Source: Streptococcus oralis (GTDB lineage: Bacteria > Bacillota > Bacilli > Lactobacillales > Streptococcaceae). Taken from it: 64,000 nt of DNA. Location of the stretch: assembly GCF_001983955.1 (NCBI RefSeq), contig NZ_CP019562.1:992001-1056000 (forward strand), given 5' to 3'. The notes under the pieces are model-generated. The model had not been told where the DNA came from. It did no database searches and saw only the letters and a program-made list of their open reading frames with translations. The position numbers and the translations under genes were made by a program. Of the stretch, positions 46,564 through 62,809 are shown piece after piece (positions within the stretch are counted from its first letter, which is position 1; each line of letters opens with the position of its first letter).

Positions 46564-46574
46564 AAAGGAAAGCC

Positions 46575-47126: not shown

Positions 47127-47673
47127 CATTGCACCGATTGCTATCTTTTTTGCAGTTATGCTCGTTATCCACTTTTTGAGTTCTCTCCTATTTAACCTTT
47201 TCCCATTCCCAATCAAACCAACTATCGTTCATATTCCAGTAATCATTGCTAGTATCATCTATGGTCCTCGGGTTGGGGTTACACTTGGTTTTCTTATGGG
47301 ACTATTGAGCTTAACGGTAAACACGATTACCATCCTTCCAACCAGCTACCTCTTCTCACCTTTCGTACCGAACGGAAACATTTACTCTGCGATTATCGCT
47401 ATTGTTCCTCGCATTTTGATTGGTCTGACACCTTACTTGGTTTATAAATTATTAAAAAACAGAACAGGTCTCATCTTTGCTGGTGCTCTCGGTTCCCTTA
47501 CCAACACCGTCTTTGTCCTTGGGGGAATCTTCTTCCTTTTTGGAAATGTCTTCGACGGCAATATTCAAAAACTCCTTGCAACCGTTATTTCTACAAACTC
47601 AATTGCCGAGCTTGTCATTTCTGCCGTTCTAACAGTAGCAATTGTCCCCCGTCTCGAAACCTTGAAGAAATAA
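47110..47673 (+). CDS. panT: ECF transporter S component, probably for pantothenate
   Basis: This 187-residue membrane protein has about six helices and the S-component helix 1 region (ALF-type AVMLVIHFLSSLLFNLFPF). The stretch HIPVIIASIIYGPRVGVTLGFLMG is typical of ECF S components. Its substrate is inferred from position: it overlaps coaC, and pantothenate is the precursor of that pathway. It would use the shared EcfA-EcfA'-EcfT module encoded elsewhere. AAAGGAA precedes the start. Confidence 0.85.
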   Translation: MNKHSNIAPIAIFFAVMLVIHFLSSLLFNLFPFPIKPTIVHIPVIIASIIYGPRVGVTLGFLMGLLSLTVNTITILPTSYLFSPFVPNGNIYSAIIAIVPRILIGLTPYLVYKLLKNRTGLIFAGALGSLTNTVFVLGGIFFLFGNVFDGNIQKLLATVISTNSIAELVISAVLTVAIVPRLETLKK

Positions 47674-47679
47674 AAAATC

Positions 47680-47708
47680 AACTCCACTTTCATTCTGAAG
47701 GTGGAGTT
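47680..47708 (-). terminator. Terminator between convergent panT and DUF3397 genes
   Basis: AACTCCACTTTC (47680-47691) pairs with GAAGGTGGAGTT (47697-47708), with one wobble. The better U-run is on the minus strand (plus 47673-47678 is A-rich), serving the DUF3397 gene. It may act on panT too. Confidence 0.75.
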
Positions 47709-47714
47709 TAGCAT

Positions 47715-48074
47715 TTAAAACATGAGAAACATCAATAGAATGTGAAAGCCAAAGCGCAGGAGCTGATACGAAAGAGGTGTAGGTTGCTGACTTTTCTGGC
47801 TATCCAAATATAGGGTTAGTGATAGAAAAATCAAACCAAATGCAATCACCAATCTGACGAAATAAGCAATTTCGAGTATTGCTGCCATCAAAAGAAAACC
47901 TAATAAAGGAAGGCTAAAGAGTGAAACAGCCAGGCTACTTGCTAATAGAGAGAGTAGCGAAAGGACCAATAAACTATAAACTAGGAAGCGAGTCCAACCT
48001 GAGACTACTTTCCCTTCACTTTTCTGTTTTGACATCATCACGATTACCACTATTAGGTAAACAAAAAGTATCAT
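47715..48074 (-). CDS. DUF3397 membrane protein
   Basis: This 119-residue protein has four predicted membrane helices (about 1-16, 28-50, 50-70 and 75-95). A short polar segment (LDSQKSQQPTPLSYQ) precedes the last hydrophobic stretch. It resembles DUF3397, whose function is unknown. I chose ATG 48074 because GAGGAG stands eight bases upstream; twelve extra codons from an upstream start would cover that site. It is a single gene between panT and niaX. Confidence 0.75.
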   Translation of the reverse strand: MILFVYLIVVIVMMSKQKSEGKVVSGWTRFLVYSLLVLSLLSLLASSLAVSLFSLPLLGFLLMAAILEIAYFVRLVIAFGLIFLSLTLYLDSQKSQQPTPLSYQLLRFGFHILLMFLMF

Positions 48075-48148
48075 CACATTTTCTCCTCGTTTCCTATTAT
48101 TCTTTACCACATTTTAACCAAATTTTCCTGAAAAATCAATAATACTTC

Positions 48149-48177
48149 TTGACTTGATTGGTGATTTATTGTACTAT
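48149..48177 (+). promoter_or_regulatory. niaX-niaR promoter
   Basis: TTGACT (48149-48154), 17 bases, TACTAT (48172-48177), with TATACT (48175-48180) as an overlapping alternative -10. The NiaR-like site begins just after it. Confidence 0.55.
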
Positions 48178-48197
48178 ACTTGTGTATATACAGATAA
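48178..48197 (+). promoter_or_regulatory. NiaR-type operator
   Basis: ACTTGTGTATATACAGATAA is close to the reported NiaR palindrome of the TGTNTATATACA type, centred on GTATATAC. It spans the transcript start of niaX-niaR, so NiaR with niacin should repress the operon. Confidence 0.75.
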
Positions 48198-48209
48198 ATG
48201 GAGGTTCTT

Positions 48210-48737
48210 ATGGATATACGGAAAAAAACGCAGTTTATGACTATGACTGCCCTACTCACTGCAATAGCGATTTTGATTCCAATCATTATGCCTTTTAAAA
48301 TCGTTATCCCACCGGCTTCTTACACCTTGGGGAGTCATATCCCCATCTTTATCGCCATGTTTCTTTCGCCTTTGATGGCTGCTTTTGTGATTATTGCTTC
48401 TAGTCTCGGTTTCCTGATGGCAGGCTACCCTATGGTTATTGTCCTACGCGCCTTTTCTCACATCGTTTTTGGTACTTTGGGGGCTTTGTACTTAAAGAAA
48501 TTCCCTGAAACCTTGGATAAACCAAAGACATCTTGGATTTTTAACTTTGTTTTGGGTGTTGTTCATGCTATCGCTGAAGTAATAGCTTGTATTATCTTCT
48601 ATGCTACTTCAGGGACAAATGTTGAAAATATGTTTTATGTTCTCTTTGTCCTAGTTGGTTTTGGCACAATCGTCCATAGTATGGTAGACTATACATTAGC
48701 ACTAGCTGTCTATAAAGTACTTCGAAAACGTCGCTAA
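48210..48737 (+). CDS. niaX: Niacin ECF transporter S component NiaX
   Basis: This 175-residue, roughly six-helix S component begins MDIRKKTQFMTMTALLTAIAI and contains the Gly/Pro-rich loop PPASYTLGSHIPIFIAMFLSP. NiaX proteins bring in niacin using the shared ECF module. I chose ATG 48210 because GGAGG lies six bases upstream; an ATG four codons earlier would contain it. niaR follows 11 bases later and a NiaR-type site covers the promoter, which supports the substrate. Confidence 0.92.
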   Translation: MDIRKKTQFMTMTALLTAIAILIPIIMPFKIVIPPASYTLGSHIPIFIAMFLSPLMAAFVIIASSLGFLMAGYPMVIVLRAFSHIVFGTLGALYLKKFPETLDKPKTSWIFNFVLGVVHAIAEVIACIIFYATSGTNVENMFYVLFVLVGFGTIVHSMVDYTLALAVYKVLRKRR

Positions 48738-48748
48738 AAGGAAAAACT

Positions 48749-49264
48749 ATGACAAAGGATCGCAAACAAGCTCTTCTCAAACTGTTAAAAGAGGCGCCAA
48801 AAGCTCTCAATGGTCAAACCTTGGCTGAGCACTTCCATGTTACTCGTCAGGTCATTGTACAGGACATCGCTATTCTCCGAGCAGATGGAGCTCCTATCCT
48901 ATCCACCAATCGTGGCTATATCTACAAAGAAAATGATGCCAGCCCCTACGTCCACAAACTCTTTAAAGTGAAACATGAACTGGAAGAAATCGGTCAGGAA
49001 CTACTAGCCATTGTAGATAATGGCGGTCGTGTTCAAAATATCTTAATCGATCATCCCGTTTATGGCGAAATTGAAACCCTACTCAAACTCACTTGCCGCC
49101 GAGATGTCCAGCACTTTCTGGAACAAGTCGAGAATTCAGACTTTAGACCCCTTTCTGAATTGACAGACGGCATCCATTACCACCTTGTTGAAGCAGAAAC
49201 ACAACAAGACCTCCACTATATCGAGGAGGCCTTGGATCAGTTAGGTTATTTGGTAAAAGACTAG
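48749..49264 (+). CDS. niaR: Niacin-responsive repressor NiaR
   Basis: This 171-residue regulator has an N-terminal HTH_11 winged helix (about 1-60, HFHVTRQVIVQDIAILRADGAPI). The C-terminal 3H domain is named for three conserved histidines, seen here as VHKLFKVKH, DHPVYGEIE and HYHLVEAE. It represses niacin uptake and salvage genes when niacin is plentiful. AAAAGGAA precedes the start. Its stop codon overlaps that of the convergent mutX remnant. Confidence 0.94.
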   Translation: MTKDRKQALLKLLKEAPKALNGQTLAEHFHVTRQVIVQDIAILRADGAPILSTNRGYIYKENDASPYVHKLFKVKHELEEIGQELLAIVDNGGRVQNILIDHPVYGEIETLLKLTCRRDVQHFLEQVENSDFRPLSELTDGIHYHLVEAETQQDLHYIEEALDQLGYLVKD

Positions 49265-49411
49265 AAAATTTCTTTCTCCCAGCCGTCCTCTGTACGGTGG
49301 CGATAGAAGAACTCTGACTTGTCAGGTGCTTCCATCATTTCCATCAAAGGCAATATATCATAGGCCAGTTCCAAATTTGGAATCTGGTCTTTTTGCACCC
49401 AAGATACTTCT
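49261..49411 (-). pseudogene. Orphan 3' end of mutX (remnant copy)
   Basis: These 151 bases match the 3' end of the intact mutX at 50506-50656, stop codon included, with about 8 differences in my manual alignment (about 95%). Past 49411 the match fades. There is no start. Its stop overlaps the niaR stop, which looks like the original end of mutX in this chromosome. The methyltransferase gene lies between the remnant and the intact copy. Confidence 0.88.
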
Positions 49412-49526
49412 TCAAATCTAAAAATTTGAGGTTTATATATGGAGAATTAGCTGTAACATGCTCTAAACACTATCCGTTTAATTTTACATTGAAAATTTTC
49501 TCCAAATTTTTTACAATATCGTTCCC

Positions 49527-50300
49527 TTAATTTTCTTTTCGAGCAATAAACATACCATATTCTTTAGGAATGATTAACATACCCTTATGAAAATTCATTT
49601 CTAATCTTTTACGAATGACTTTTTCTTCTAGCGAACCAATTTCTGAAATTCCTTTAAAGGATTGGATGTATTTAACTAGGTCATCTATACTAGTTACCTG
49701 TAACTCATCATCATAGAGTAATGTTTCGACAGAGCCAAAATACATACTCAGTTGGCTTTTGCCATTTTGTAAAGTAAACGTTTTATTTTCCAAATCTTGA
49801 TTGATCTCATCTTTAAATAAACTTGCTAAATAATCTACAACTCCATTTTCACCAAATGTGGCACAGTAAAAAATACCTCCTGTTTTTAAGATTCTATTCA
49901 CCTCGGAGAGAGCTTTAGGAATATCATTTACATGATGTAAAAGCATATTAGCAATAACAATATCAAACGTTTCATTCTCAAAAGAAATCTTTTGAATATC
50001 CATTATTGTATAGTTGACATTGTTCCTATTTCCAATCACTGACTTCGTTGTTTTTACCATATCTTTAGAAAAATCTGTAACAACCAACTGCTTCATTCTA
50101 TCAATAGAATCACTATTACTTTTCCATAGTTCTCCTGTACCACATCCCAATTCTAGGACCTTTACTTCATCAGTGATTTGGTAGTTGAAAAATATCCAAT
50201 TATTAAACCCTAATTTATTTTTTGAATATTTCTTATGTAGTTTTACTCTAATATCAAGATTATCTTGTTTTGCATATTGTTCAATTACCCTATCAGCCAT
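49527..50300 (-). CDS. Class I SAM-dependent methyltransferase
   Basis: This 257-residue enzyme has motif I VLELGCGTGELW (about 48-59), motif II-like VVTDFSKDM and the segment DIVIANMLLHHVNDIPKALSEV of ubiE/Methyltransf_11 proteins. The C-terminal 80 residues probably fix the substrate, which I cannot tell; such orphan genes often modify small molecules or antibiotics. It is AT-rich relative to its neighbours and has its own extended -10 promoter (50329-50337). It lies between the two mutX 3' ends, which marks it as an insertion. Confidence 0.85.
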   Translation of the reverse strand: MADRVIEQYAKQDNLDIRVKLHKKYSKNKLGFNNWIFFNYQITDEVKVLELGCGTGELWKSNSDSIDRMKQLVVTDFSKDMVKTTKSVIGNRNNVNYTIMDIQKISFENETFDIVIANMLLHHVNDIPKALSEVNRILKTGGIFYCATFGENGVVDYLASLFKDEINQDLENKTFTLQNGKSQLSMYFGSVETLLYDDELQVTSIDDLVKYIQSFKGISEIGSLEEKVIRKRLEMNFHKGMLIIPKEYGMFIARKEN

Positions 50301-50328
50301 TTTCTTTTACTTCCTTTCATATCTTAAG

Positions 50329-50337
50329 ATTATACCA
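50329..50337 (-). promoter_or_regulatory. Extended -10 promoter of the methyltransferase gene
   Basis: On the minus strand TGGTATAAT (TATAAT at 50329-50334) lies about 28 bases before the ATG. The -35 is poor. Confidence 0.55.
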
Positions 50338-50505
50338 TAAAATAAAATATCTCCGATTTCAAAATTGAAGGTGGAGATTGTTAAAGATAAAGATAGAAAA
50401 GAAGAATAGGAAATTTTGAAGTATTCAGTTGACATACACCGACATACTTATCCTATATTTAAGTACCAATCATTAAAGGTTAACACCGTTCCAGTAATCA
50501 TACAA

Positions 50506-50656
50506 CTAGAAAATTTCTTTTTCCCAGCCGTCCTCTGTGCGGTGGCGATAGAAGAACTCAGACTTGTCAGGTGCTTCCATCATTTCCATCAGAGGCAACA
50601 TATCATAGGCCAGATCCAAATTTGGAATCTGGTCTTTTGGTACCCAAGATACTTCT
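50506..50656. repeat. Direct repeat: intact partner of the mutX remnant
   Basis: This 3' part of mutX is the counterpart of 49261-49411, in the same orientation and 1,245 bases away. The two copies bracket the methyltransferase gene. Confidence 0.85.
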
Positions 50657-50973
50657 CCTTCATCTGAAGATTGGAGATTCCCAGTAAACTTTGTCGCCTT
50701 ATAACAAAAAACGATGTAGCGCCCACCTGTATCTAAGGGCCAATTTTTAATGCCGACTAGTTGAGGATTTTGAATGGTCAGGCCAGTTTCTTCGTATATT
50801 TCACGAATGACAGACTCGGCAAAGGCCTCGCCATTCTCAACATGTCCTCCTGGAAAGGCATAGCCAGACCAGAGATTGTTTTCAGGAGAGCGATATTGCA
50901 TGACTACTTGCTTGGTTTCAATGTCTTCAATCAGACAGATATTGGTTAAAATAGTTGCTTGGGCACGGGACAT
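50506..50973 (-). CDS. mutX: MutX, 8-oxo-dGTP diphosphatase (Nudix)
   Basis: This 155-residue Nudix hydrolase removes oxidised dGTP from the nucleotide pool. The Nudix box GGHVENGEAFAESVIREIYEETGL begins at about residue 42 and contains the REIYEE core that binds metal. It complements MutY, which acts on 8-oxoG already in DNA. The ribosome site is weak. It follows the four membrane-protein genes on the same strand. The 3' end seems to have been supplied with the insertion. Confidence 0.93.
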   Translation of the reverse strand: MSRAQATILTNICLIEDIETKQVVMQYRSPENNLWSGYAFPGGHVENGEAFAESVIREIYEETGLTIQNPQLVGIKNWPLDTGGRYIVFCYKATKFTGNLQSSDEGEVSWVPKDQIPNLDLAYDMLPLMEMMEAPDKSEFFYRHRTEDGWEKEIF

Positions 50974-50996
50974 AGATTTGCTCGCTTTCTAAGTTG

Positions 50997-51437
50997 TTAT
51001 ATGCTTTTTTCGAACTTGATATCAGATTTCATGATGAATGGATTAATCAACTCGTGATGTTCATAAGTAGTACGGGCCAAAAAACCTCTAACAATGGTGA
51101 TTTCTTTATCTTGTATGTGATAGTCTATATTGATGGGAATGGCTGGATCCGACATAATTGACAAAGCAAAAAATGCTGCAAACCAAAGATAAAGTGCCAC
51201 CAATCCACTAAATATTTGAAAAATAAGGTGGTACCATTGAAAATCTCTTATTCTATAAAAGATTCTCCAGGGATGGATTAAGCAGGTCAAACAAAGAATG
51301 AAAAACCAACTATTCCACAAAATTGGAGTAAAGGATAGACCAAAAACTAACAACACCAAATGAAGAACCATAAAAGTCAGCAAGACCAGATAGAGGTTTT
51401 TAAATGAAAATAACTTAACTAGATTTTCTTTTGTCAT
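50997..51437 (-). CDS. Membrane protein, fourth gene of an overlapping cassette
   Basis: This 146-residue protein has about three hydrophobic helices (roughly 12-35, 38-55 and 72-95) and a soluble C-terminal domain of 50 residues ending DIKFEKSI. It does not share the motifs of the three genes before it. I chose ATG 51437, since AGAGGA lies six bases upstream; seven more codons are possible. It overlaps the previous gene by 23 bases, so translation is probably coupled. I do not recognise a family. Confidence 0.65.
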   Translation of the reverse strand: MTKENLVKLFSFKNLYLVLLTFMVLHLVLLVFGLSFTPILWNSWFFILCLTCLIHPWRIFYRIRDFQWYHLIFQIFSGLVALYLWFAAFFALSIMSDPAIPINIDYHIQDKEITIVRGFLARTTYEHHELINPFIMKSDIKFEKSI

Positions 51438-51972
51438 GATTTTTCCTCTTTTTGCCATTATATTTCAAAATCACTATCACTATCGCTGGAATAAAGAAAA
51501 AGATTAGATAAGTAGCAATTGGAAGCCAGATGTAGCGATAATCAACAGATAATAGGGAAGGAATTTTTTTAACATTTCTCCCTTTCACCCCAACAATTAA
51601 GTGGAGAAGAAAAATAGGTCCATTTATGTATAGAAAAGGTTCTAAAAATTCTTGTACTGAATCCTTATTGCTAAAACCATCTCTAAAAATACCTTGATAG
51701 AGTGTGTGCACCAAAAAGACAAAATTCATAATAATTGGCAAGACATAGGACATTTCCTGATATGGTTTTGGGATAAGTGACGTCCCGAACAACACATACA
51801 TGATACCAAAAATAGAAAATAATATTATGCCACCATCCATAAAAGAAGCAAGCTTTGGATGCCTTCCCATCCACAATTGGACGTGAGCTATCAAAGAATC
51901 CTTTTTATGGATTTTTCTCATTTTTCTGTTCTTTTGTTTGATCTTCTTTGGTTTCTTAATCTTTCGTTCCAT
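51415..51972 (-). CDS. Paralogous membrane protein 3 of the cassette
   Basis: This 185-residue protein has a strongly basic N-terminus (about 20 residues rich in Lys), four or five hydrophobic helices and a basic tail. It shares with the two upstream genes the motif HVQLWMGRHPKLASFMD, an EPFLYING segment, and YIWLPIATYLIFFF near the end. AAGGAGG lies five bases before the ATG. It overlaps gene 2 by 55 bases and gene 4 by 23. No family is recognised. Confidence 0.7.
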   Translation of the reverse strand: MERKIKKPKKIKQKNRKMRKIHKKDSLIAHVQLWMGRHPKLASFMDGGIILFSIFGIMYVLFGTSLIPKPYQEMSYVLPIIMNFVFLVHTLYQGIFRDGFSNKDSVQEFLEPFLYINGPIFLLHLIVGVKGRNVKKIPSLLSVDYRYIWLPIATYLIFFFIPAIVIVILKYNGKKRKNHDKRKSS

Positions 51973-52487
51973 TTTCGCCTCCTTCTTCTCTTTTCTTTCT
52001 GTATAATCAAAAGCAGAATGCCCAGCCCCAAGAAAAAGAAAAAGAGATAACTTACAATAGGAACCCAGACATATGCTGGATCCATAGAAATTATAGGAGG
52101 GAAATTCGTTGACTTACGACGTCCTAGCCAATTCAGACCTACCAAGAGATGAAAGGGAAAAAGAAGACCATTGAACCCAATAAATCCCCATGAAAAGTAA
52201 CGCCATTTCTGAAGTTTATCACTACTAAAACGAAAGACAAGGAAATAGGTTGATAAGATCAGAAGGATAAGATTGAAGCTTAAGGGGGAAAGATAGTTTA
52301 TGTTCGGTAATAGGTAACTAATGTAAGAGGCGGCAAGAAATGATACAAACATAGATCCAAATAATACACTCGTATCCAAAAGTTGACCAATCCTTCTGTG
52401 CCTTTCCATCCAAAGAAAAATCCTTTTAGTCCAAGAAGGCTTTTCTTTTGTCTTGTACTTCATTTGTCTACTCATCTTCATTTTCAT
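51918..52487 (-). CDS. Paralogous membrane protein 2 of the cassette
   Basis: This 189-residue protein has about four helices between basic ends; the last 30 residues are nearly all Arg, Lys and polar. Shared motifs are FLWMERHRRIGQLLD, GFNGLLFPFHLLVG and YVWVPIVSYLFFFF. Three in-frame ATG codons occur in the first five codons. GGAG is only three bases before the first, so the second (52481) may be used. It overlaps genes 1 and 3. The function is unknown. Confidence 0.68.
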   Translation of the reverse strand: MKMKMSRQMKYKTKEKPSWTKRIFLWMERHRRIGQLLDTSVLFGSMFVSFLAASYISYLLPNINYLSPLSFNLILLILSTYFLVFRFSSDKLQKWRYFSWGFIGFNGLLFPFHLLVGLNWLGRRKSTNFPPIISMDPAYVWVPIVSYLFFFFLGLGILLLIIQKEKRRRRRKWNERLRNQRRSNKRTEK

Positions 52488-52971
52488 CTACTCCTTTTTT
52501 TGAACCTTTAGAGAGAAAGAAGATTGCCAAAGTTAACATCAAGACTAGAAGGTAGACGACAATAGGAAACCAGATATAGGATGACTCCAGTGAAAACAAA
52601 GGTGATAGAACAACTCTTCCTCTTTTTCTCACGCCAATCAGTTGAAAAATGAAGCTAAGGATATTGATATAAATAAAGGGTTCACAAAATCTTTTAAGGG
52701 TCCTTTCTTTTTCAGTTTTCACTGACAAAAAGAGAGCATAGAACCTATTACCCAAGATAAAAAGATTCAATTGCAAGGGAAATAGGAGTTCTCTGTACCG
52801 AAAATCAGCTGGAAGGCTTTTGTTTTGTGATGTTGTAAATTCTATAACTAGGAACAATATGATATAAAAGAACATATCAAGCATAAATTTGACAAATCGA
52901 TGCCCTTGTAACCAAAAACGAACAGAATCTAAGCCTGATGACTTCTTATACTTCGTCTCTTTCAAATTCAT
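52468..52971 (-). CDS. Paralogous membrane protein 1 of the cassette
   Basis: This 167-residue protein has about four helices. It shares VRFWLQGHRFVKFMLD, CEPFIYINILSFIFQLIG and YIWFPIVVYLLV with the next two genes. It ends with a charged tail (SKKGVDENEDE) that overlaps the next gene by 20 bases. GAGGGAAG precedes the ATG. As the first gene it should carry the promoter, but I see only an AT-rich candidate. No characterised family is recognised. Confidence 0.68.
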   Translation of the reverse strand: MNLKETKYKKSSGLDSVRFWLQGHRFVKFMLDMFFYIILFLVIEFTTSQNKSLPADFRYRELLFPLQLNLFILGNRFYALFLSVKTEKERTLKRFCEPFIYINILSFIFQLIGVRKRGRVVLSPLFSLESSYIWFPIVVYLLVLMLTLAIFFLSKGSKKGVDENEDE

Positions 52972-53060
52972 AATAACTTCCCTCTATTTATAATATAATC
53001 TAAAACATGATTGTTTGTTCATTGCGTAATCTGAAAACAAAATCGCAATTCTACCAGTAT

Positions 53061-53564
53061 TTAACTCTCAGATTTTGAGGATTTCTTACGTACCATTCTA
53101 ATTTCAGTGATAGGTTTTCCAAGGTCAAGTATTTTTTCTTGCCCATCAAAAGTAAAACCCATTTTTTGATAGAAATCAATGGCTCGCTTATTCTCTTTTA
53201 ATACCCATAAAAATATTTCAGAGAACTGTTCAAGAGTCGTCAGAGCTTCCTTCATTAACTTCTGAGCAATACCTTCTCCATAATAGTCTTTTAAAACATA
53301 TAAGGCAATGATCTCACCAGCTTGGATAGTCTCATCACGAAAGTTTCCATAACTGATAAAACCAACTACCTTCATGCCATCCATCGCGATCAATGTATTT
53401 TCTGGATATTTTTGACTAAAAAATCGACATCTTTCTAATGTCATCGTCTCCTGAAATTCTGCAGGTAAAAGGTCATCATAAGCCTCTCTCCACGTTTGCC
53501 AATGAACGAGAGACTTGCTTTCTATCTCTTCAGGAGTTACCATTTGTTTGATAGTTAGGTTCAT
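53061..53564 (-). CDS. GNAT-family N-acetyltransferase
   Basis: This 167-residue acetyltransferase has the acetyl-CoA loop region IIALYVLKDYYGEGIAQKLM (about 85-104). The C-terminal strand FLWVLKENKRAIDFYQKMGF is typical of GNAT domains. The substrate is unknown. GGAG precedes the start. It overlaps the upstream acetyltransferase gene by 35 bases, so the pair is probably co-translated. Confidence 0.88.
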   Translation of the reverse strand: MNLTIKQMVTPEEIESKSLVHWQTWREAYDDLLPAEFQETMTLERCRFFSQKYPENTLIAMDGMKVVGFISYGNFRDETIQAGEIIALYVLKDYYGEGIAQKLMKEALTTLEQFSEIFLWVLKENKRAIDFYQKMGFTFDGQEKILDLGKPITEIRMVRKKSSKSES

Positions 53565-54093
53565 TTATTTTTCTCCATTCTTCTCTCAGAATACCATATT
53601 TAATACTATCAAAATATTTGCCTTGGTAATAACGAACTTTTGGAATATGAGCTTCTTTTTTCATTCTTAATTTTTCAGCAAGTTTTACCATACCAAGATT
53701 TCCTGACCAAGTTGTCAAACCAAGATGCTCCAACACCAAGTAATCCTTAAATGTCCGATCTATCCATTGTAGCATAGCAGCTTTTCCAATGCCAGAGTTC
53801 CAAAATTTGTTATCATAAATACAAATCCCCAATTCCATCCATCTTGTTTGTTTACATACCCAGTAGCGCGAAACAGTCCCAACTAATTTATCATCAACAA
53901 AAATACCAAGGCGATTTGAGTTGTTTAGAGTAGATTCTGATTTTTGTAGTTTAAATTCTTGAAAATTAGGAAAATGCTGATAATCGTCATAATAGGGAGC
54001 ATCATACTGTTTCCAAATTGGATTAGATTGTGAATAAGCAATTTCCCACAAAGACACCAAATCTTCTTCAATTAGTTTTCTTAAATAAACCAT
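53530..54093 (-). CDS. GNAT-family acetyltransferase (RimJ/RimL-like)
   Basis: This 187-residue protein of the RimJ/RimL-like group has the segment LGICIYDNKFWNSGIGKAAMLQWIDRTF (about 92-119) and LGLTTWSGNLGMVKLAEKLRM, which binds acetyl-CoA and closes the fold. Unlike true RimL there is no ribosomal gene context. AGGA lies six bases before the ATG. It starts eight bases after the oxidoreductase gene and overlaps the next GNAT gene. Confidence 0.85.
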   Translation of the reverse strand: MVYLRKLIEEDLVSLWEIAYSQSNPIWKQYDAPYYDDYQHFPNFQEFKLQKSESTLNNSNRLGIFVDDKLVGTVSRYWVCKQTRWMELGICIYDNKFWNSGIGKAAMLQWIDRTFKDYLVLEHLGLTTWSGNLGMVKLAEKLRMKKEAHIPKVRYYQGKYFDSIKYGILREEWRKINEPNYQTNGNS

Positions 54094-54101
54094 ACTTTTT
54101 C

Positions 54102-54728
54102 CTAATCCAACGCCTTGACTTCCTCAGCAACTTTTTGCAGATATTTTTGTCTTATAGAATTTGTATTCACCTCACGCCCTAACTCACCCAAAATTGAAAC
54201 TTTCTTTGTTTTAATACCGCAGTGATTTAGGACAGCATTCTTTAATACTGATATTCCATAACTGTCTGGGATATTGATAGGACCTGAAAATACTTTGTAC
54301 CACCATGTTGGTGCCATTGATGTTGCGTAAATACTGGCTGTTTTTCCTTTTAGTAACTTTTTAAACTGCTGACCTCTTAAGTAGTTCCAAATAAAACTTC
54401 CTTTATTATTGGCAGAGTAAGCAATTCCTGGCGTGAAAACACGATCGATCCAACCCTTCAATAAACTAGGCATACTACTCCACCAAATTGGATAAACAAA
54501 AATGAAATGATCTGCCCACTGGATTAATTCCTGAGAGCGAAGTATGAAAGAGTCCTCTTCCATCCGTTTTCGATAACCATAACGTAATACGGGATCAAAA
54601 TCTATCTCATTTAGATTAATAGATTCAAGCTCATGATGATTTGAGTCAATATTTTCTACAATCGTTCGAAAAATTTCTTGACAGAAACTTCCCTTGTCAG
54701 GATGTCCATTGATGACTAAAATTTTCAT
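54102..54728 (-). CDS. NAD(P)H-dependent oxidoreductase (flavodoxin fold, KefF/NQO type)
   Basis: This 208-residue flavoprotein begins MKILVINGHPDKGSFCQEI, the FMN-binding loop of the family. Further marks are VYPIWWSSMPSLLKGWIDRVFTPG and GKTASIYATSMAP. It should reduce quinones or similar electrophiles with NAD(P)H. The AGGAG ribosome site overlaps the end of the uvrB remnant, 14 bases upstream. The original order was therefore probably uvrB directly followed by this gene. Confidence 0.9.
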   Translation of the reverse strand: MKILVINGHPDKGSFCQEIFRTIVENIDSNHHELESINLNEIDFDPVLRYGYRKRMEEDSFILRSQELIQWADHFIFVYPIWWSSMPSLLKGWIDRVFTPGIAYSANNKGSFIWNYLRGQQFKKLLKGKTASIYATSMAPTWWYKVFSGPINIPDSYGISVLKNAVLNHCGIKTKKVSILGELGREVNTNSIRQKYLQKVAEEVKALD

Positions 54729-54742
54729 TCATTTTCTCCTAT

Positions 54743-54943
54743 CTAACCCAACGCCTTGACTTCCAGCATCATATCTCGGATCTGAGCTGCTAGTTCAAAG
54801 TCAAGCACTTCGACGGCTTCCTGCATTTGTTTTTCTAGTTTCTTAACAAGTTCTTTACGTTCCTGTTTATTAAGGCTATTAATATCGACTTCCTTGTCCT
54901 CTTCCTTGGCAACTGCCTTAGTCACGGCGATTAGATCACGGAT
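54743..54943 (-). pseudogene. Orphan 3' end of uvrB (remnant copy)
   Basis: These 201 bases match the last 201 bases of intact uvrB (56101-56301) with about 28 differences (about 86%). The encoded UVR domain is almost unchanged, with most changes at third positions. A GTG-started frame of 60 codons exists but is just the C-terminal UvrB fragment. The match stops abruptly at 54943. The acyltransferase gene lies between the remnant and uvrB. Confidence 0.9.
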
Positions 54944-55022
54944 AAGTTCAGTAAACCTTAAGTTCTCAGTGAAGTGTATATTTTAATGCGTCTTGCTCCT
55001 ATTTTAATAAGACAATAAAGTT

Positions 55023-56060
55023 TTAAGTCTGTTTAAGATTTTTAACACTCTTTATTAAAGTAAGAATATACGCCATTAATTTATTTCTAAAATACTCAAT
55101 CATAGCGCCAGAAAAGAACAGGGCCAGTGTCATAACTAGAATCATAATGACAAAAATGGGAAATTCTTGTTCTTCAACTAAAGTATGGATGGTTGGTATA
55201 ATTCTTCTAAAAATAAGAGGATGTACATGAAACAGATAACCCCCCAAAGTTAGTGGAGATATTAAAAGAACTAGTCTCTTAAAAGTTAAGGGAATATCTT
55301 TAATATTCAAGAAGAGTAAAAATATTGCTATTCCTTGCAGTGTGACCGTAGGAGAAATATAACTTCTCCACTGTTCAAAACCAAACCAGCACAATATAAA
55401 AGTTAAACTAGTTAGAAATAAAATGAATCCACTAACATTACGTATTTGAAAACGACTTTCATAATTTGATTTTCTAATTATTGCTCCTATAGTGTACAAA
55501 AGAATCATCCATAATACACTATATCCACCCCACAAGCCCAGAATATCTTGTTTAAATACTGTAGGTATGACAGAAAAGTATATAAATGCTCCACTAACAA
55601 TTGGAAGCAATTGTTCTTTTTTCAATGTCAACACTGCTTGATTCAAAAATGGTGCTATTAAGACTAAACCAAAATAGCAACTCATATACCAATACTGTCC
55701 ATGACTTATTGGAGTTAAAGCTGAAAACCAATCACTTAAGTTAACAGATGATTTTGAAAAAATAGCAAATACAAAAGTAATTGAAATAGTATAGAAAATA
55801 ATCTGTATCCAAAAACTAAACATTTTTTTATAACTAAATTGTGAATAAAGACCGACATACCCACTGATTAAAATATAAATATTTACAGCTGAATATGAGA
55901 AAGCTTCTAAAAAATTGGCAAAAATATAGTAAAAATCTTTTTGACTATCAACTTTCTCCAAAATTCCTCCCATACCCAAAACATGTAAGTTGCAAATCAT
56001 CAACATAGCTAGAATTCTACAACATTCAATGCCTATGTGTTTAGTTTTTTTTGCTGTCAT
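55023..56060 (-). CDS. Acyltransferase 3 family membrane protein
   Basis: This 345-residue protein has about ten helices and the family's first-helix pattern IECCRILAMLMICNLHVLGMGG, with Arg and the catalytic-type His. Members O-acetylate or otherwise acylate sugars, peptidoglycan or antibiotics. The substrate is unknown. It is AT-rich compared with uvrB. It starts 40 bases after the uvrB stop and could be read from the uvrB promoter. It lies between the two uvrB 3' ends, which points to an insertion. Confidence 0.88.
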   Translation of the reverse strand: MTAKKTKHIGIECCRILAMLMICNLHVLGMGGILEKVDSQKDFYYIFANFLEAFSYSAVNIYILISGYVGLYSQFSYKKMFSFWIQIIFYTISITFVFAIFSKSSVNLSDWFSALTPISHGQYWYMSCYFGLVLIAPFLNQAVLTLKKEQLLPIVSGAFIYFSVIPTVFKQDILGLWGGYSVLWMILLYTIGAIIRKSNYESRFQIRNVSGFILFLTSLTFILCWFGFEQWRSYISPTVTLQGIAIFLLFLNIKDIPLTFKRLVLLISPLTLGGYLFHVHPLIFRRIIPTIHTLVEEQEFPIFVIMILVMTLALFFSGAMIEYFRNKLMAYILTLIKSVKNLKQT

Positions 56061-56100
56061 ATTATGTCTCTCTATATATTTCTATTTCTTTATAATTTTT

Positions 56101-56301
56101 TCAGTTTAACGCCTTCACTTCCAACATCATGTCACGTATCTGAGCTGCCAGTTCAAAATCAAGCACTTCGACGGCTTCTTGCATTTGTTTTTTGAGTTTT
56201 TTGACGAGTTCCTTGCGTTCTTGTTTGTTGAGGCTATTGATATCGACTTCCTTGTCCTCTTCCTTGGCAACTGCCTTGGTCACGGCAATAAGATCACGGA
56301 T
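56101..56301. repeat. Direct repeat: intact partner of the uvrB remnant
   Basis: This is the last part of uvrB, matching 54743-54943 in the same orientation, 1,358 bases away. The copies bracket the acyltransferase gene. Confidence 0.88.
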
Positions 56302-58089
56302 TTCTTTCTTAATGGTTTGTGGTACAATACCATGTTCTTCATTATAGGCCATCTGGATTTTCCGACGGCGGGCCGTTTCATCGATGGCACGTTGCATAGA
56401 CTGAGTAATCGTGTCCGCATACATGATGACATGTCCTTCGCTATTACGGGCAGCACGTCCAATGGTCTGGATGAGGCCACGTTCGTTACGAAGGAAACCT
56501 TCCTTGTCAGCATCTAGAATAGCAACCAAACTTACTTCAGGTACGTCAATCCCTTCACGGAGCAAATTGATTCCGACCAAGACATCAAAAACACCCAAGC
56601 GTAGGTCGCGGATAATCTCTGTCCGTTCCAAGGTCTTGATATCCGAGTGCATATACTTGACCTTGATGCCCATTTCTTTGAAGTAGTCAGTCAAGTCTTC
56701 TGCCATCTTCTTGGTCAAGGTTGTGATAAAGGTACGTTCATTCTTTTCAACACGGGCATTGATTTCACCTAGGAGGTCATCAATCTGTCCCATAGTTGGA
56801 CGGACTTCCACTTCAGGGTCCAAAAGACCTGTCGGACGAATAATTTGCTCAATCACTGTCTCGGTCTGTTCATTTTCATAGTCGCCTGGTGTCGCTGAAA
56901 CGTAAACAATCTGATGCACATGACTCTCAAACTCTTCCCGACGAAGAGGACGGTTGTCTAGGGCAGAAGGTAAACGGAAACCATAATTAACTAGCATTTC
57001 CTTACGAGAACGGTCTCCATTATACATGCCCTTGATTTGCCCCATGGTCATGTGACTTTCATCAATCATGATCAAGAAATCATCTGGGAAAAAGTCGAGA
57101 AGCGTATAAGGAGGCTCTCCTTCACTACGACCATCCATGTGGCGTGAGTAGTTCTCAACCCCATTTGTATAACCCATCTCACGTAGCATTTCGATATCAT
57201 ACTCTGTCCGTTGTTTCAAGCGTTGTGCTTCTAGCAGTTTGCCTTCCTTCTCAAAGACAGCTAACTGCTCCTCCAACTCTGCCTGAATCTTGGCAATGGC
57301 AACTTCCATGTGGTCGTCATTGGTCACAAAGTGAGTGGCAGGGAAGATCGCCAAATGATCCACTTCTCCCAATACCTGACCTGTCAAAGCCTCAACCTCA
57401 CGGATACGGTCAATCTCATCTCCGAAAAACTCTACTCGAAAAGCGTGTTCATCACGAGAAGCTGGGAAAATCTCCACCACATCCCCGCGAACGCGAAATC
57501 TTCCCCGTTGGAAATCAATATCATTGCGTTCAAACTGAATATCCACCAAGTCATTCAAGAGTTTGTCACGAGAAATCTCCAGACCTGGACGGAGACTAAC
57601 GACACTATCAGCATATTCCTTTGGCGAACCCAAACCATAGATACAAGAGACAGAAGCCACGACGATGACATCATTGCGCTCCAGAAGGGCTGAAGTCGCT
57701 GAGTGACGGAGCTTGTCAATCTCATCATTGACTGAGCTATCCTTCTCAATATAGGTATCACTCGAAGGAACATAGGCCTCGGGTTGGTAATAATCATAGT
57801 AGGATACGAAGTACTCAACAGCATTTTCAGGGAAAAATTCCTTAAACTCCCCATAGAGCTGACCAGCTAGGGTTTTGTTATGGGCAATGACCAAAGTTGG
57901 TTTATTGACTTTGGAAATGACCTGACTCATGGTATAGGTCTTCCCTGTACCCGTCGCCCCCATCAGAATCTGAGCCTTTTCTCCACCCTCGATATTGTCA
58001 ACCAACTGCTCAATCGCTTGGGGTTGATCTCCTGAAGGTTCATATTTTGATACTAGTTTAAATTTATTATCTGTAATTCTATTAATCAT
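56101..58089 (-). CDS. uvrB: Excinuclease ABC subunit B
   Basis: This is a 662-residue nucleotide-excision repair helicase that loads UvrC at lesions. It has Walker [13 protein letters not shown] near residue 40, [20 protein letters not shown], the motif VI region QTIGRAARN and a C-terminal UVR domain (about 625-660) that binds UvrC. A GAGG ribosome site lies before the ATG. It is leftward and divergent from glnPH. Its last 201 bases recur as a diverged remnant 1.36 kb downstream. Confidence 0.98.
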
Positions 58090-58211
58090 GATTGCCTCAT
58101 CTGCATTTTTCTATCCTTCTATTTTACCATAAATTTACTTTTCAGACTCTTCTCTAGGTTGATGAGAGCAAGGATTCTATGTCACATTTTCTTACATAAA
58201 ATCCATAAAAT

Positions 58212-58240
58212 TTGCCTTTTCATTCATTTTCTGATATAAT
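58212..58240 (+). promoter_or_regulatory. glnPH-glnQ promoter
   Basis: TTGCCT (58212-58217), 17 bases, and a perfect TATAAT (58235-58240) preceded by TGA. AAAGGAG precedes the ATG. Confidence 0.75.
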
Positions 58241-58269
58241 GGGAAAATATTCGGAAAAGGAGACTAAAA

Positions 58270-60432
58270 ATGAAGAAAAAAATACTAGCATGTTTGCTCA
58301 TTTTATTTCCCATTTTCTCACTAGGTATGGCAAAAGCTGATACTGTTAAGATTGTGTCTGATACAGCTTACGCACCTTTTGAGTTTAAAGATTCAGATCA
58401 AACCTATAAAGGGATTGATGTTGATATTATCAATAAAGTCGCAGAAATCAAAGGATGGAATATCCAAATGTCTTATCCTGGCTTTGATGCAGCTGTAAAT
58501 GCAGTGCAGTCAGGTCAAGCAGATGCCATTATGGCAGGTATGACAAAAACAAAAGAACGTGAAAATGTCTTTACCATGTCTGATACCTATTATGATACAA
58601 AAGTTGTCATTGCTACCACAAAGGCAAATAAAATCACCAAATATGAGGAACTCAGCGGGAAAACAGTTGGAGTTAAGAACGCAACTGCCGCTCAACGTTT
58701 CCTCGAAAGTATCAAAGATAAATACGGTTTCTCTATTAAAACCTTTGATACAAGTGATTTGATGAATAACAGTCTAAGTGCTGGTGCTGTGAATGCCATC
58801 ATGGATGACAAACCTGTTATTGAGTATGCGATTAACCAAGGACAAGATCTCAGCATCAATATGGATGGTGAGGCTGTTGGAAGCTTTGCCTTTGGTGTCA
58901 AGAAAGGGAGCAAGTATGAACACTTGGTTACCGAGTTTAACGAAGCCCTAGCCCAAATGAAGAAGGATGGTAGCTTGGAGCAAATCATCCAAAAATGGAC
59001 GGCTTCTAAAACTACTGCAAGCCCAACAACTACTGCTGCTGGACAAAAAGCTACTCCTGTGAAAAGCAAGTACATTATTGCCAGCGACTCATCTTTCGCC
59101 CCATTCGTCTTTCAAAATTCAAGCAATCAATACACCGGTATTGATATGGATCTTATCAAGGCCATTGCCAAAGATCAAGGTTTTGAAATTGAAATTACCA
59201 ACCCAGGATTTGACGCAGCCATCAGTGCTGTTCAAGCAGGACAAGCAGATGGTATCATTGCTGGTGTGTCTGTAACAGATGCCCGTAAGGAAACCTTCGA
59301 CTTCTCAGAATCATACTACACAGCAAATACGATTCTTGGTGTGAAAGAATCAAGCACGATCGCTTCTTATGAGGACCTCAAGGATAAAACTGTCGGTGTT
59401 AAAAACGGAACTGCTTCTCAAACGTTCCTTACTGAAAATCAAAGCAAATACGGTTATAAGATTAAAACCTTTGCTGATGGCGCATCAATGTATGACAGTC
59501 TGAATACTGGAGCTATTGATGCTGTGATGGATGATGAGCCAGTTCTCAAATATTCTATCAGCCAAGGTCAAAAATTGAAAACACCAATCGCTGGAACTCC
59601 AATCGGTGAAACTGCCTTTGCGGTTAAAAAAGGAACAAACCCTGAATTGATCCAGATGTTCAATAACGGACTTGCGAACCTCAAAGCTAACGGTGAATTC
59701 CAAAAGATTCTTGACAAGTATCTAGCTAGCGAAACTTCAACTGACTCTACAAGTACGGTTGACGAAACAACTATCTGGGGCTTGCTTCAAAACAACTACA
59801 AACAACTTCTTAGTGGACTTGGAATCACTCTTGCCTTAGCGCTTATTTCATTTGCAATTGCCATTGTCATCGGGATTATCTTTGGTATGTTTAGTGTTAG
59901 CCCATACAAATCTCTTCGTCTGATTTCTGAGATTTTCGTTGACGTTATTCGAGGAATTCCATTGATGATTCTTGCAGCCTTCATCTTCTGGGGAATACCA
60001 AACTTCATCGAGTCGATTACCGGCCAACAAAGTCCAATCAATGACTTTGTAGCTGGTACTATTGCCCTCTCACTCAATGCAGCTGCTTATATCGCTGAAA
60101 TTGTTCGTGGTGGGATTCAAGCTGTTCCAGTTGGGCAAATGGAGGCCAGTCGCAGTCTTGGTATTTCTTATGGAAAAACCATGCGTAAGATTATCTTGCC
60201 ACAAGCGACTAAATTGATGTTGCCAAACTTCGTCAACCAATTTGTTATCGCTCTTAAAGATACAACCATCGTGTCTGCTATCGGTTTGGTTGAACTCTTC
60301 CAAACTGGTAAGATCATCATTGCCCGTAACTACCAAAGTTTCAAGATGTATGCAATCCTTGCTATCTTCTATCTTGTAATTATCACGCTTTTGACTAGAC
60401 TAGCGAAACGCTTAGAAAAGAGGATTCGTTAA
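58270..60432 (+). CDS. Glutamine/amino-acid ABC transporter, two receptors fused to permease (GlnP type)
   Basis: This 720-residue protein has an N-terminal signal or anchor (1-23) and two SBP_bac_3 receptor domains (about 25-245 and 272-490). These share repeated motifs such as DxAYAPF/SSFAPF, YxGIDxDL and PGFDAA. A permease domain follows (about 505-720) with five or so helices and the EAA-like loop [24 protein letters not shown]. It is the layout of lactococcal GlnP, which takes up glutamine and glutamate/asparagine with two receptors of different affinity. glnQ starts at its stop. Confidence 0.93.
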
Positions 60433-61172
60433 TGGCAAAACTAAAAATTGATGTAAATGATTTGCATAAGTATTATGGAAAAAATGAAGTTTTAAAAGGT
60501 ATTACTACTAAGTTTTATGAAGGAGATGTTGTTTGTATCATCGGTCCTTCTGGTTCTGGTAAATCCACTTTCCTCCGTAGCCTTAACCTTCTCGAGGAGG
60601 TAACGAGTGGCCACATCACAGTAAATGGTTATGATCTGACTGAAAAATCAACCAATGTCGACCATGTTCGTGAAAACGTGGGAATGGTCTTCCAACATTT
60701 CAACCTCTTCCCTCACATGTCCGTCCTAGAAAATATCACTTTTGCACCTATTGAACACAAACGGATGACCAAAGAAGAAGCTGAAAAAATGGGGATGGAG
60801 TTGCTTGAAAAGGTAGGACTAGCAGATAAAGCTAATGCCAACCCAGATAGCCTTTCAGGTGGTCAGAAACAGCGTGTAGCTATCGCTCGTGGACTTGCCA
60901 TGAATCCTGATATCATGCTCTTTGATGAGCCAACTTCCGCTCTTGACCCTGAAATGGTTGGAGATGTACTGAATGTTATGAAGGAATTGGCGGAACAAGG
61001 CATGACCATGATTATCGTAACCCATGAGATGGGATTTGCTCGTCAGGTGGCCAACCGTGTTATCTTTACGGCTGATGGTGAGTTCCTGGAAGATGGAACT
61101 CCAGATCAAATCTTCGATAACCCACAACACCCTCGTCTAAAAGAGTTCTTGGACAAGGTCTTAAATGTATAA
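60432..61172 (+). CDS. glnQ: Amino-acid ABC transporter ATP-binding protein (GlnQ type)
   Basis: This 246-residue ATPase drives the GlnP permease. It has Walker [10 protein letters not shown] near residue 38, signature [16 protein letters not shown], Walker [17 protein letters not shown] and the His switch [10 protein letters not shown]. It starts one base from the end of the permease gene (TTAATGG overlap), with AAGAGGA inside that gene as its ribosome site. A terminator follows. Confidence 0.95.
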
Positions 61173-61175
61173 AAC

Positions 61176-61206
61176 AAAACTGTAAGGTTCTCCTTACAGT
61201 TTTTTA
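61176..61206 (+). terminator. Terminator of glnPH-glnQ
   Basis: AAAACTGTAAGG (61176-61187) pairs with CCTTACAGTTTT (61192-61203) over TTCT, followed by more T residues. Confidence 0.92.
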
Positions 61207-61242
61207 ATTGCGTATTGGATTTTTTGTTTTTTTTGAAAATTA

Positions 61243-61251
61243 TGATAAAAT
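61243..61251 (+). promoter_or_regulatory. Extended -10 promoter of zwf
   Basis: TGATAAAAT (TAAAAT at 61246-61251) in a T-rich region with a poor -35. The leader of about 63 bases contains a small hairpin CCTAGT-CCA-ACTAGG (about 61279-61293) before the AGGTAG ribosome site. Confidence 0.5.
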
Positions 61252-61321
61252 AAAAACTATGATAATGAGGAAATCTCATCCCTAGTCCAACTAGGAAAAA
61301 ATATAGAAATTAGGTAGCTAG

Positions 61322-62809
61322 ATGTCATCAAAGGTTATTGTTACAATTTTCGGTGCGAGTGGAGATTTAGCTAAACGCAAACTCTACCCTTCCCTTTTCA
61401 GACTCTATAAATCAGGCAATCTCTCTGAGCATTTTGCTGTTATCGGAACAGCTCGTAGACCTTGGAGTAAGGAATATTTTGAATCTGTAGTTGTCGAGTC
61501 CATCCTTGATTTGGCAGATAGTACCGAGCAAGCCCAGGAATTTGCTAGCCACTTCTACTATCAAAGCCATGATGTGAATGACACGGAACATTACATTGCT
61601 TTGCGTCAATTACAAGCTGAGCTTAATGAAAAATACCAAGCTGAACACAATAAGCTCTTCTTCTTGTCTATGGCACCACAGTTCTTCGGAACCATTGCCA
61701 AACACCTCAAATCTGAAAACATTGTCGATGGCAAAGGTTTTGAGCGCTTGATCGTTGAAAAACCTTTTGGTACAGACTACGAAACAGCTAGCAAACTCAA
61801 TGAAGATCTCCTTGCGGCCTTTGATGAAGAGCAAATCTACCGTATCGACCATTACCTAGGTAAAGAGATGATTCAGAGTATCTTTGCTGTTCGTTTTGCC
61901 AACATGATCTTTGAGAATGTTTGGAATCGCGAACACATCGATAATGTTCAGATTACCTTTGCAGAACGTTTGGGTGTAGAAGAACGTGGTGGCTACTATG
62001 ATCAATCTGGTGCCCTTCGTGATATGGTGCAAAACCATACACTCCAACTTCTCTCTCTTCTAGCCATGGACAAACCAGCTAGCTTTACAAAAGATGAGAT
62101 TCGCGCTGAAAAGATAAAGGTCTTTAAAAACCTCTATCATCCAACTGAGAAAGAATTGAAAGAACAGTTTATTCGTGGTCAATATCGCTCTGGTAAAATC
62201 GATGGCATGAAATACATTTCCTATCGAAGCGAACCAAATGTCGATCCTGAATCCACAACAGAAACTTTCGCATCTGGCGCCTTCTTTGTAGACAGCGATC
62301 GTTTCCGTGGTGTTCCCTTCTTCTTCCGTACTGGTAAACGCCTGACCGAAAAAGGAACTCATGTCAATATCGTCTTTAAGCAAATGGACTCTATCTTTGG
62401 AGAACCATTAGCACCAAATATCTTGACCATCTATATCCAACCAACTGAAGGATTCTCTCTCAGCCTCAATGGGAAGCGAGTCGGTGAAGAATTTAACCTG
62501 GCACCAAGCTCTCTGGATTACCGTACAGATGCTACTGCTACTGGAGCCTCACCAGACCCATACGAGAAATTAATCTACGATGTCTTGAATAACAACTCTA
62601 CCAACTTTAGCCACTGGGATGAGGTAAGTGCTTCTTGGAAATTGATTGACCGTATCGAAGAGCTCTGGGCTGAAAATGGAGCTCCACTCTACGATTATAA
62701 AGCTGGAAGCATGGGGCCACAAGCTAGCTTTGACTTACTTGTGAAGTATGGAGCTAAATGGACCTGGCAACCAGATATCGCCTATCGTGAAGATGGCCGT
62801 TTAGAATAG
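61322..62809 (+). CDS. zwf: Glucose-6-phosphate 1-dehydrogenase
   Basis: This 495-residue enzyme oxidises glucose-6-phosphate to 6-phosphogluconolactone with NADP, the entry to the oxidative pentose-phosphate path. Marks are the dinucleotide motif FGASGDLAKRKLYPSLF, the active-site RIDHYLGKEMIQ near residue 175 and FRTGKRLTEKGTHV. It feeds NADPH and ribose for Prs. It is monocistronic and convergent with ftsY. Confidence 0.98.
   Translation: MSSKVIVTIFGASGDLAKRKLYPSLFRLYKSGNLSEHFAVIGTARRPWSKEYFESVVVESILDLADSTEQAQEFASHFYYQSHDVNDTEHYIALRQLQAELNEKYQAEHNKLFFLSMAPQFFGTIAKHLKSENIVDGKGFERLIVEKPFGTDYETASKLNEDLLAAFDEEQIYRIDHYLGKEMIQSIFAVRFANMIFENVWNREHIDNVQITFAERLGVEERGGYYDQSGALRDMVQNHTLQLLSLLAMDKPASFTKDEIRAEKIKVFKNLYHPTEKELKEQFIRGQYRSGKIDGMKYISYRSEPNVDPESTTETFASGAFFVDSDRFRGVPFFFRTGKRLTEKGTHVNIVFKQMDSIFGEPLAPNILTIYIQPTEGFSLSLNGKRVGEEFNLAPSSLDYRTDATATGASPDPYEKLIYDVLNNNSTNFSHWDEVSASWKLIDRIEELWAENGAPLYDYKAGSMGPQASFDLLVKYGAKWTWQPDIAYREDGRLE

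Follow-up and report, generated by a model that had tools for sequence, protein, structure and literature searches.

Duplicated 3′ ends of uvrB and mutX flank inserted genes in Streptococcus oralis and suggest insertion-duplication behind core genes

How can a bacterium gain a gene directly behind a core gene without breaking what was there before? The question is raised by the uvrB locus of Streptococcus oralis, in a stretch of 64,000 nucleotides (assembly GCF_001983955.1, contig NZ_CP019562.1, positions 992,001 to 1,056,000; hereafter the window, from the genome designated G000), where a foreign-looking acyltransferase gene lies between intact uvrB and a second, orphan uvrB 3′ end. On the minus strand, which carries all the window features described here, the order is uvrB, 40 nt, the acyltransferase gene, 79 nt, the orphan, 14 nt and an oxidoreductase-like gene. 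We propose, with a probability of roughly 0.6, that the locus arose by insertion-duplication, with homology at one end of an incoming fragment and an illegitimate join at the other, probably during natural transformation, and that it was then spread by ordinary recombination.

Intact uvrB (56101-58089), an open reading frame (ORF) of 662 aa, matches the TIGR00631 uvrB equivalog at 1112 bits (cutoff 750), and the orphan (54743-54943), recognised by its repeat match, carries a UVR motif (PF02151). Positions 54750-54943 of the orphan and 56108-56301 of the intact gene (-201 to -8 from the gene end; boundaries were re-derived with each genome's own uvrB) form an ungapped direct repeat of 194 nt with 89% identity and an E value of 6e-67, which excludes chance as the source of the duplication; the two copies have 22 nt differences over the 192 nt compared. 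The match stops 7 nt short of the gene end, where intact uvrB reads A AAC TGA and the orphan G GGT TAG, and together with these last 7 nt there are about 28 differences, as counted in an earlier note on this DNA, which had placed the acyltransferase gene between intact uvrB and a 201-base orphan end. The whole insert between the repeat copies (54944-56107, 1164 nt) takes in the last two codons of intact uvrB (AAC TGA) and holds a single gene of at least 60 aa, the acyltransferase 3 gene (55023-56060; 345 aa; PF01757, E 2.3e-25). Proteins of the PF01757 family transfer acyl groups, often onto surface sugars. No match was found between the acyltransferase and NCBIfam or PADLOC models. Searching with the protein at E ≤ 1e-20 retrieved 81 relatives, and the four rows bearing a name were all streptococcal. 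The GC content of both the gene and the whole insert is 29%, that of uvrB and mutX 42-47%, and that of the genes between the orphan and mutX 32-38%.

What the orphan represents becomes clear from genomes that lack the insert. The gene 14 nt behind it (54102-54728) encodes a flavodoxin-fold NAD(P)H oxidoreductase-like protein (PF02525), and in 8 of the 41 loci compared this gene lies directly behind uvrB (G119, G120, G222, G115, G236, G230, G104 and G107). The spacing at the insert-free loci of G119, G120, G222, G115 and G230 is again 14 nt, equal to the link behind the orphan to which attention had been drawn before; it is 15 nt in G236, and G104 and G107 have another link. We take the orphan to be the 3′ end that uvrB had in the recipient chromosome, and the oxidoreductase-like gene to be the former neighbour of uvrB.

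A survey of 284 Streptococcus genomes with the 201-nt uvrB end as query gave a match in 273 and at least two matches in 13, of which 10 have an orphan behind uvrB with inserted DNA (cargo) in between. In the other three (G171, G182 and G283), left out of the orphan count, the second match spans merely 22-29 nt and lies elsewhere. Seven genomes (G000, G206, G130, G005, G114, G225 and G118) have the acyltransferase as cargo and two (G127 and G208) an SLFN-group-3 helicase-like gene (PF09848); in G246 (L221:3-3969) the cargo is DUF2971-like (43% to the DUF2971 family over 430 aa), before an orphan of 112 nt at 93%. The start of the repeat differs with the cargo, at -201 for the acyltransferase and -89 for the SLFN-type helicase, with the repeat running from -110 to +2 for the DUF2971-like cargo. 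At E ≤ 1e-60, the acyltransferase family is present in 12 of the 284 genomes. Seven members are close (92-100% identity; the named records are presumably S. oralis BCC10 and Streptococcus sp. WB01_FAA12), and all seven lie between uvrB and an orphan that in some genomes is degraded. The five diverged members (69-74%; G213, G233, G204, G102 and G245; the named records are presumably S. mitis SK564 and Streptococcus spp. HMSC034E03, oral taxon 431 S46, Marseille-Q5986 and HPH0090) all lie directly behind uvrB without an orphan, and no uvrB remnants were found behind them. Thus, adjacency of uvrB and the acyltransferase gene also exists without an orphan. Likewise, members of the DUF2971 family lie directly behind uvrB, without an orphan, in 9 of the 41 loci.

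The window holds a second case of the same architecture, as the earlier note had also claimed, behind a gene that we, like that note, take to be mutX (50506-50973; no match to NCBIfam at 1e-20). The 152 nt at 49260-49411 are 95% identical to 50505-50656 (175 columns at 91% when extended), and between this orphan mutX 3′ end and intact mutX lies a gene for an S-adenosylmethionine (SAM) methyltransferase (49527-50300; 257 aa; PF08241; 29-30% GC), so that both window inserts have about 29% GC. As a side observation, the interval between uvrB and mutX (50997-54728 in the window, and L040-L079) is highly variable across genomes, with GNAT acetyltransferases, small membrane proteins, DUF2971, an SLFN-helicase and AAA/PDC-M12-like pairs coming and going.

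With the 152-nt mutX end as query, 112 of the 284 genomes gave a match and 29 at least two. An orphan mutX end lies behind mutX in 27 of the 61 genomes whose loci were fetched, a set that was chosen partly for two copies and gives no rate. The cargo is a methyltransferase in 10 of the first 41 loci (repeat start at about -151, or as far out as -174 in local alignments); in 7 of those 41 loci the genes of a ribose operon were called (rbsR-like, ribokinase, D-ribose pyranase, RbsA-, RbsC- and RbsB-like; repeat start at about -142). In G107, G168 and G200 it consists of YSIRK surface proteins (-198 to -271), and the repeat of G108, with a cargo of unassigned class, starts at -103. Across loci, repeats range from about 90 to 340 nt and their lengths vary mainly with the cargo. 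Two cargoes are stacked in G103 (L055) and G227 (L056), in the order mutX, methyltransferase, mutX end, ribose operon, mutX end. Moreover, the ribose and YSIRK cargoes have a common left join at +65 plus roughly 40 nt beyond it, suggesting that cargoes were swapped downstream of a single left join.

One mutX join, for which both parental sequences are at hand, may show how cargo becomes attached. The methyltransferase cargo of G121 and G201 is joined on the right at the usual point (-151) but lacks its left part, and the left join lies 109 nt past the mutX stop (+109). There, the uninterrupted sequence of G206 and the cargo match at 10 of 12 nt (cargo of G127 or G000) or 9 of 12 nt (G268); among the 124,251 pairs of 12-mers from the two regions, 14 (G127) or 4 (G000) reach 10 of 12. 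On these sequences the join looks like an illegitimate one formed by microhomology, and we read it as one event present in two genomes.

The architecture also recurs at other core genes. We searched 40 stretches of 20 kb of the genome of the window (800 kb, 41% of the genome), 400 kb of G103 and 400 kb of the distant G026, 1.6 Mb in all, with the uvrB and mutX cases, which had prompted the search, excluded from the counts. The 800 kb of G000 contain four further 3′-end duplications with cargo. Behind a gene for a ROK kinase (L121:8551-10832), a methyltransferase gene is followed by a 90-nt orphan end (93%) before a convergent rpiR-type gene. At a prepilin peptidase gene, an EcsC-family protein is the cargo and the copy has 95 nt at 96%; the site has a single copy, and is thus empty, in G225, G066 and G165, and in G103 and G236 (L211, L212) we noted two copies at other spacings, perhaps with other cargoes. 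A glyoxalase gene (L113:14216-17937) has a 167-nt copy of its end (91%), with genes for a lactococcin-972-type peptide and ABC proteins in between, and a gene for a CAAX-protease-type protein has a 253-nt copy (83%) behind small or broken-looking ORFs. No 3′-end duplication with cargo was found in the 400 kb of G103; the 400 kb of G026 hold one (L180:11083-15367), in which AAA_21 and RloB genes lie between a purH-type gene and a 233-nt orphan (88%). In S. suis, restriction-modification genes reportedly lie beside purH, although a literature search gave no paper for this.

The same 1.6 Mb contain two 5′-end duplications with cargo: L111 (74 nt, 81%) and L113:943-2357, where a TPP riboswitch leader (319 nt, 96%) is duplicated on both sides of a tenA-like gene. 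The count is 5 of the 3′ type (L113 at 14216, L121, L138 and L141 in G000; L180 in G026) against 2 of the 5′ type, which is not statistical evidence for a 3′ bias. Two regions flagged as 3′ were not counted as such, namely L140, an intergenic repeat over a 99-aa ORF, and the TPP leader of L113 (943/2042), counted with L111. L195 in G026 (178 nt, 98%) is in neither class, because it copies a gene's 5′ end with the other copy on the downstream side of that gene; admitting it gives three 5′ cases, and 5 against 3. L133, L139 and L166 are in neither class, as their copies touch a 5′ end but lie within long ORFs on one or both sides.

Is the intact uvrB end foreign? The earlier note had raised the possibility that it is closer to another species, and the comparison speaks against this. 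Over the 194 nt, the intact ends of the seven carriers are on average 92.6% identical to those of 16 picked non-carriers, which are also 92.6% identical among themselves, and the nearest relative of the G000 end is a non-carrier, G119 (95.9%); of the two G000 copies, the orphan is the more unusual one. For the four full-length orphans, identity is 89.9% to the non-carriers and 86.7% to each other. In a tree of the 194-nt ends, the intact ends of the seven carriers are scattered (4 label changes in a count made against the 4 orphans alone; all of 500 shuffles gave a value as low), and thus no donor was found. The two G000 copies differ in 22 codons, and a single one of these differences is non-synonymous (expected share at random 0.80; P 4e-14, assuming independent sites), suggesting that most of the divergence arose between working uvrB alleles. 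Four ungapped uvrB pairs give 6 amino-acid changes in 57 differing codons, a count that, like those for mutX, omits gapped rows as well as G108, G245 and both fragments of the disrupted G118 orphan; those fragments have 18 differing codons, 6 of them with an amino-acid change, and bring the uvrB count to 12 in 75. The ratio is 19 in 66 for six mutX pairs of the methyltransferase site and 63 in 132 for eleven of the ribose site, where several genomes are near-identical and the pairs are not independent. These codon patterns suggest that the two G000 ends built up most of their differences within functional genes, or else that recombination has renewed the G000 orphan; elsewhere, orphans appear to decay. 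An orphan ORF of at least 60 aa was called in 2 of the 7 acyltransferase carriers (G000 and G130). The G000 orphan is an open 60-codon frame that includes the UVR motif, and the frame is also free of stops in G206 and G130; the GTG start is missing in G206, and the orphan has a deletion of 1 nt in G005, a gap of 12 nt in G114 and G225 and an internal deletion in G118.

The insertion-duplication that we favour would proceed as follows. A donor fragment would consist of a uvrB 3′ end followed by the acyltransferase gene. Homologous recombination would take place inside uvrB at one end of this fragment, and the other end, without homology, would be joined illegitimately about 200 nt upstream of the uvrB stop. 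The join could be made on a sister chromosome, or the fragment could be closed into a circle and integrated by one crossover. The product would be a complete uvrB with the incoming end, the cargo, and the former uvrB end next to its original neighbour, with natural transformation as the probable route. Later, the locus would be spread and reshuffled by ordinary homologous exchange while the orphan decays, and such products may persist because neither flanking gene is broken. Frequent recombination is described for S. oralis (PMC9769543), and in E. coli duplications of 109-950 bp are described as arising by one crossover with a circle from which some of the homologous stretch is absent (PMC3240628). 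Recombination with homology on one side and an illegitimate join on the other predicts repeats of variable length, microhomology, a lack of mobility genes, and cargo beside the same gene without a repeat; all of these are seen, the microhomology as a putative one at a mutX join, although not all at uvrB itself. We infer transformation as the route, the direction of transfer, the one-sided homology at uvrB itself, the second mutX form as a re-insertion and the choice of sub-route.

Several points weigh against this proposal. Homology-facilitated illegitimate recombination (HFIR), as described, usually deletes recipient DNA (PMC3240628), and a duplication in place of a deletion needs the sister-chromosome or the circle variant. 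Among the 284 genomes, none has a close acyltransferase (at least 92%) and no orphan; adjacency of uvrB and an acyltransferase exists elsewhere, but neither a donor for the present insert nor a second parent of the right join at uvrB turned up among the genomes compared, and the orphan-free form may derive from the orphan-bearing one by loss. Over the 194 nt, the carriers' intact ends lack the donor signature that the proposal predicts, although later recombination could have erased it, and the few amino-acid changes could also stem from later recombination refreshing the orphan. Lastly, the repeat start is not strictly constant per cargo, since the ribose operon of G245 has an orphan that begins at -99.

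An alternative that we consider unlikely is a self-mobilising element, in which the cargo plus a core-gene 3′ end would circularise between the repeat copies and re-enter other chromosomes through a single RecA crossover in that gene end, without a mobility gene of its own. Such an element would account for the same gene ends being common to different cargoes, for the stacks of G103 and G227 and for the left join common to the ribose and YSIRK cargoes. However, no circle or excision was observed, exchange of linear fragments gives the same pattern, and the left join of G121 and G201 looks illegitimate and not like a clean crossover.

It is improbable that the direct repeats around the cargo are the scar of a transposon or insertion sequence (IS), or an ordinary tandem duplication into which the cargo arrived later. 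The ORFs of the uvrB insert include no transposase and no integrase, and a search of this insert, the only one searched for terminal repeats, for inverted-repeat pairs of 12-20 nt gave no long terminal inverted repeats. A transposon scar, allowed for by the earlier note, finds no support in the uvrB case. Target duplications made by transposons have 2-14 nt, and the repeats here, at about 90-340 nt, are far longer. As for a tandem duplication, no empty tandem copy of the uvrB end was seen behind uvrB among the 13 of 284 genomes with at least two matches; each has either cargo in between or its second match elsewhere.

Very improbable is site-specific integration at gene 3′ ends by an element, or what is left of one, that brings a replacement end, as in some prophages and islands, where insertion behind an intact core gene with the displaced end downstream has a similar outline. 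The 1164-nt insert has no integrase ORF, no tRNA was found at 46000-62000, and the cargoes are unrelated to each other. Moreover, such an element predicts one repeat start per gene, but the starts are -201, -110 or -89 at uvrB and about -142, -151 or -198 to -271 at mutX. Since repeat lengths vary mainly with the cargo and integrase, transposase and long terminal repeats are lacking, a fixed att site or a transposon is unlikely. Least credible of all is that the orphan is kept for a function, as a UVR-domain mini-protein or as a terminator or buffer between cargo and neighbour, for despite the open frame in three carriers an ORF was called in just two of the seven, the others lack the start or have deletions or gaps, and identity within the set of four full-length orphans is lower (86.7%) than for the carriers' intact ends (92.6%).

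The earlier note had suggested that its two cases share a common mechanism for adding genes. That the architecture recurs with other cargoes, at other core genes and in other genomes is borne out, and a common origin is plausible in the sense of a class of recombination event; a dedicated gene-adding mechanism goes beyond the present support; duplication lengths differ between cargoes, and 5 against 2 is no significant excess at 3′ ends. The recurring scar behind core genes suggests a simple way to gain genes without breaking old ones. A wider view, which we regard as doubtful, is that core-gene 3′ ends in mitis-group streptococci are shared landing pads for integrase-free cassettes, in which cargo flanked by such an end would leave, travel, re-enter, stack or swap with no more than RecA and competence, each time restoring a complete host gene. 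In any event, the locus preserves a legible trace of a way in which naturally competent bacteria may acquire accessory genes that bring no mobility genes with them, with the orphan marking the site, the cargo and the join, and it may help to account for the high variability of the genes directly downstream of uvrB and mutX in oral streptococci. If general, orphan 3′ ends would offer a simple genome scan for such insertion events, and the role of competence as their driver could be asked about.

How does this compare with known systems? A literature search found no paper joining uvrB and mutX in Streptococcus, and none on microhomology and duplication in transformation of S. pneumoniae with foreign DNA. 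In S. pneumoniae, merodiploids generated by transformation are described, in which integration of a fragment between chromatids leads to duplications (PMC3784515). This resembles the sister-chromosome sub-route, but those duplications span about 100-900 kb between IS repeats and bring no new cargo. For single-crossover insertion-duplication of lacZ by a circle in E. coli, the diagnostic polymerase chain reaction product is reported in 56 of 60 clones, and the 14 duplications sequenced had 109-950 bp (PMC3240628). The product is the same, with a copy of the target end on either side of the insert; that system uses a laboratory plasmid in E. coli, whereas for the present locus no circular form is known. 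HFIR in transformation was reportedly set out by Prudhomme et al. in 2002. It is described as combining homology at one end with an illegitimate join at the other, with a microhomology of 3-10 bp in most cases (PMC3240628). The mutX join of G121 and G201 (10 or 9 of 12 nt) may be of this kind, but HFIR products generally carry a deletion, whereas recipient DNA is duplicated here. The closest system is insertion with long target duplication, for which the Kobayashi group (Nobusato et al. 2000, Gene 259:99) is said to have reported empty sites and no transposase. Helicobacter pylori is the main case of long target duplication with restriction-modification genes. In the accounts consulted, the inserted restriction-modification genes are flanked by long direct repeats of variable length (PMC3031569, PMC4978471). 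Here too, the repeats are far above transposon size (194 nt at uvrB, 152-175 nt at mutX) and vary in length between events, and relatives have a single-copy empty site (8 of 41 loci at uvrB; three genomes at the prepilin peptidase gene). The difference lies in the cargo, which in the described system consists of restriction-modification genes, whereas at uvrB it is a PF01757 acyltransferase and, across streptococcal core-gene 3′ ends, ranges from acyltransferase and methyltransferases to a ribose operon, surface proteins, a bacteriocin operon and defence-like genes. If the architecture proves general, long target duplication would be extended from restriction-modification genes to ordinary cargo.

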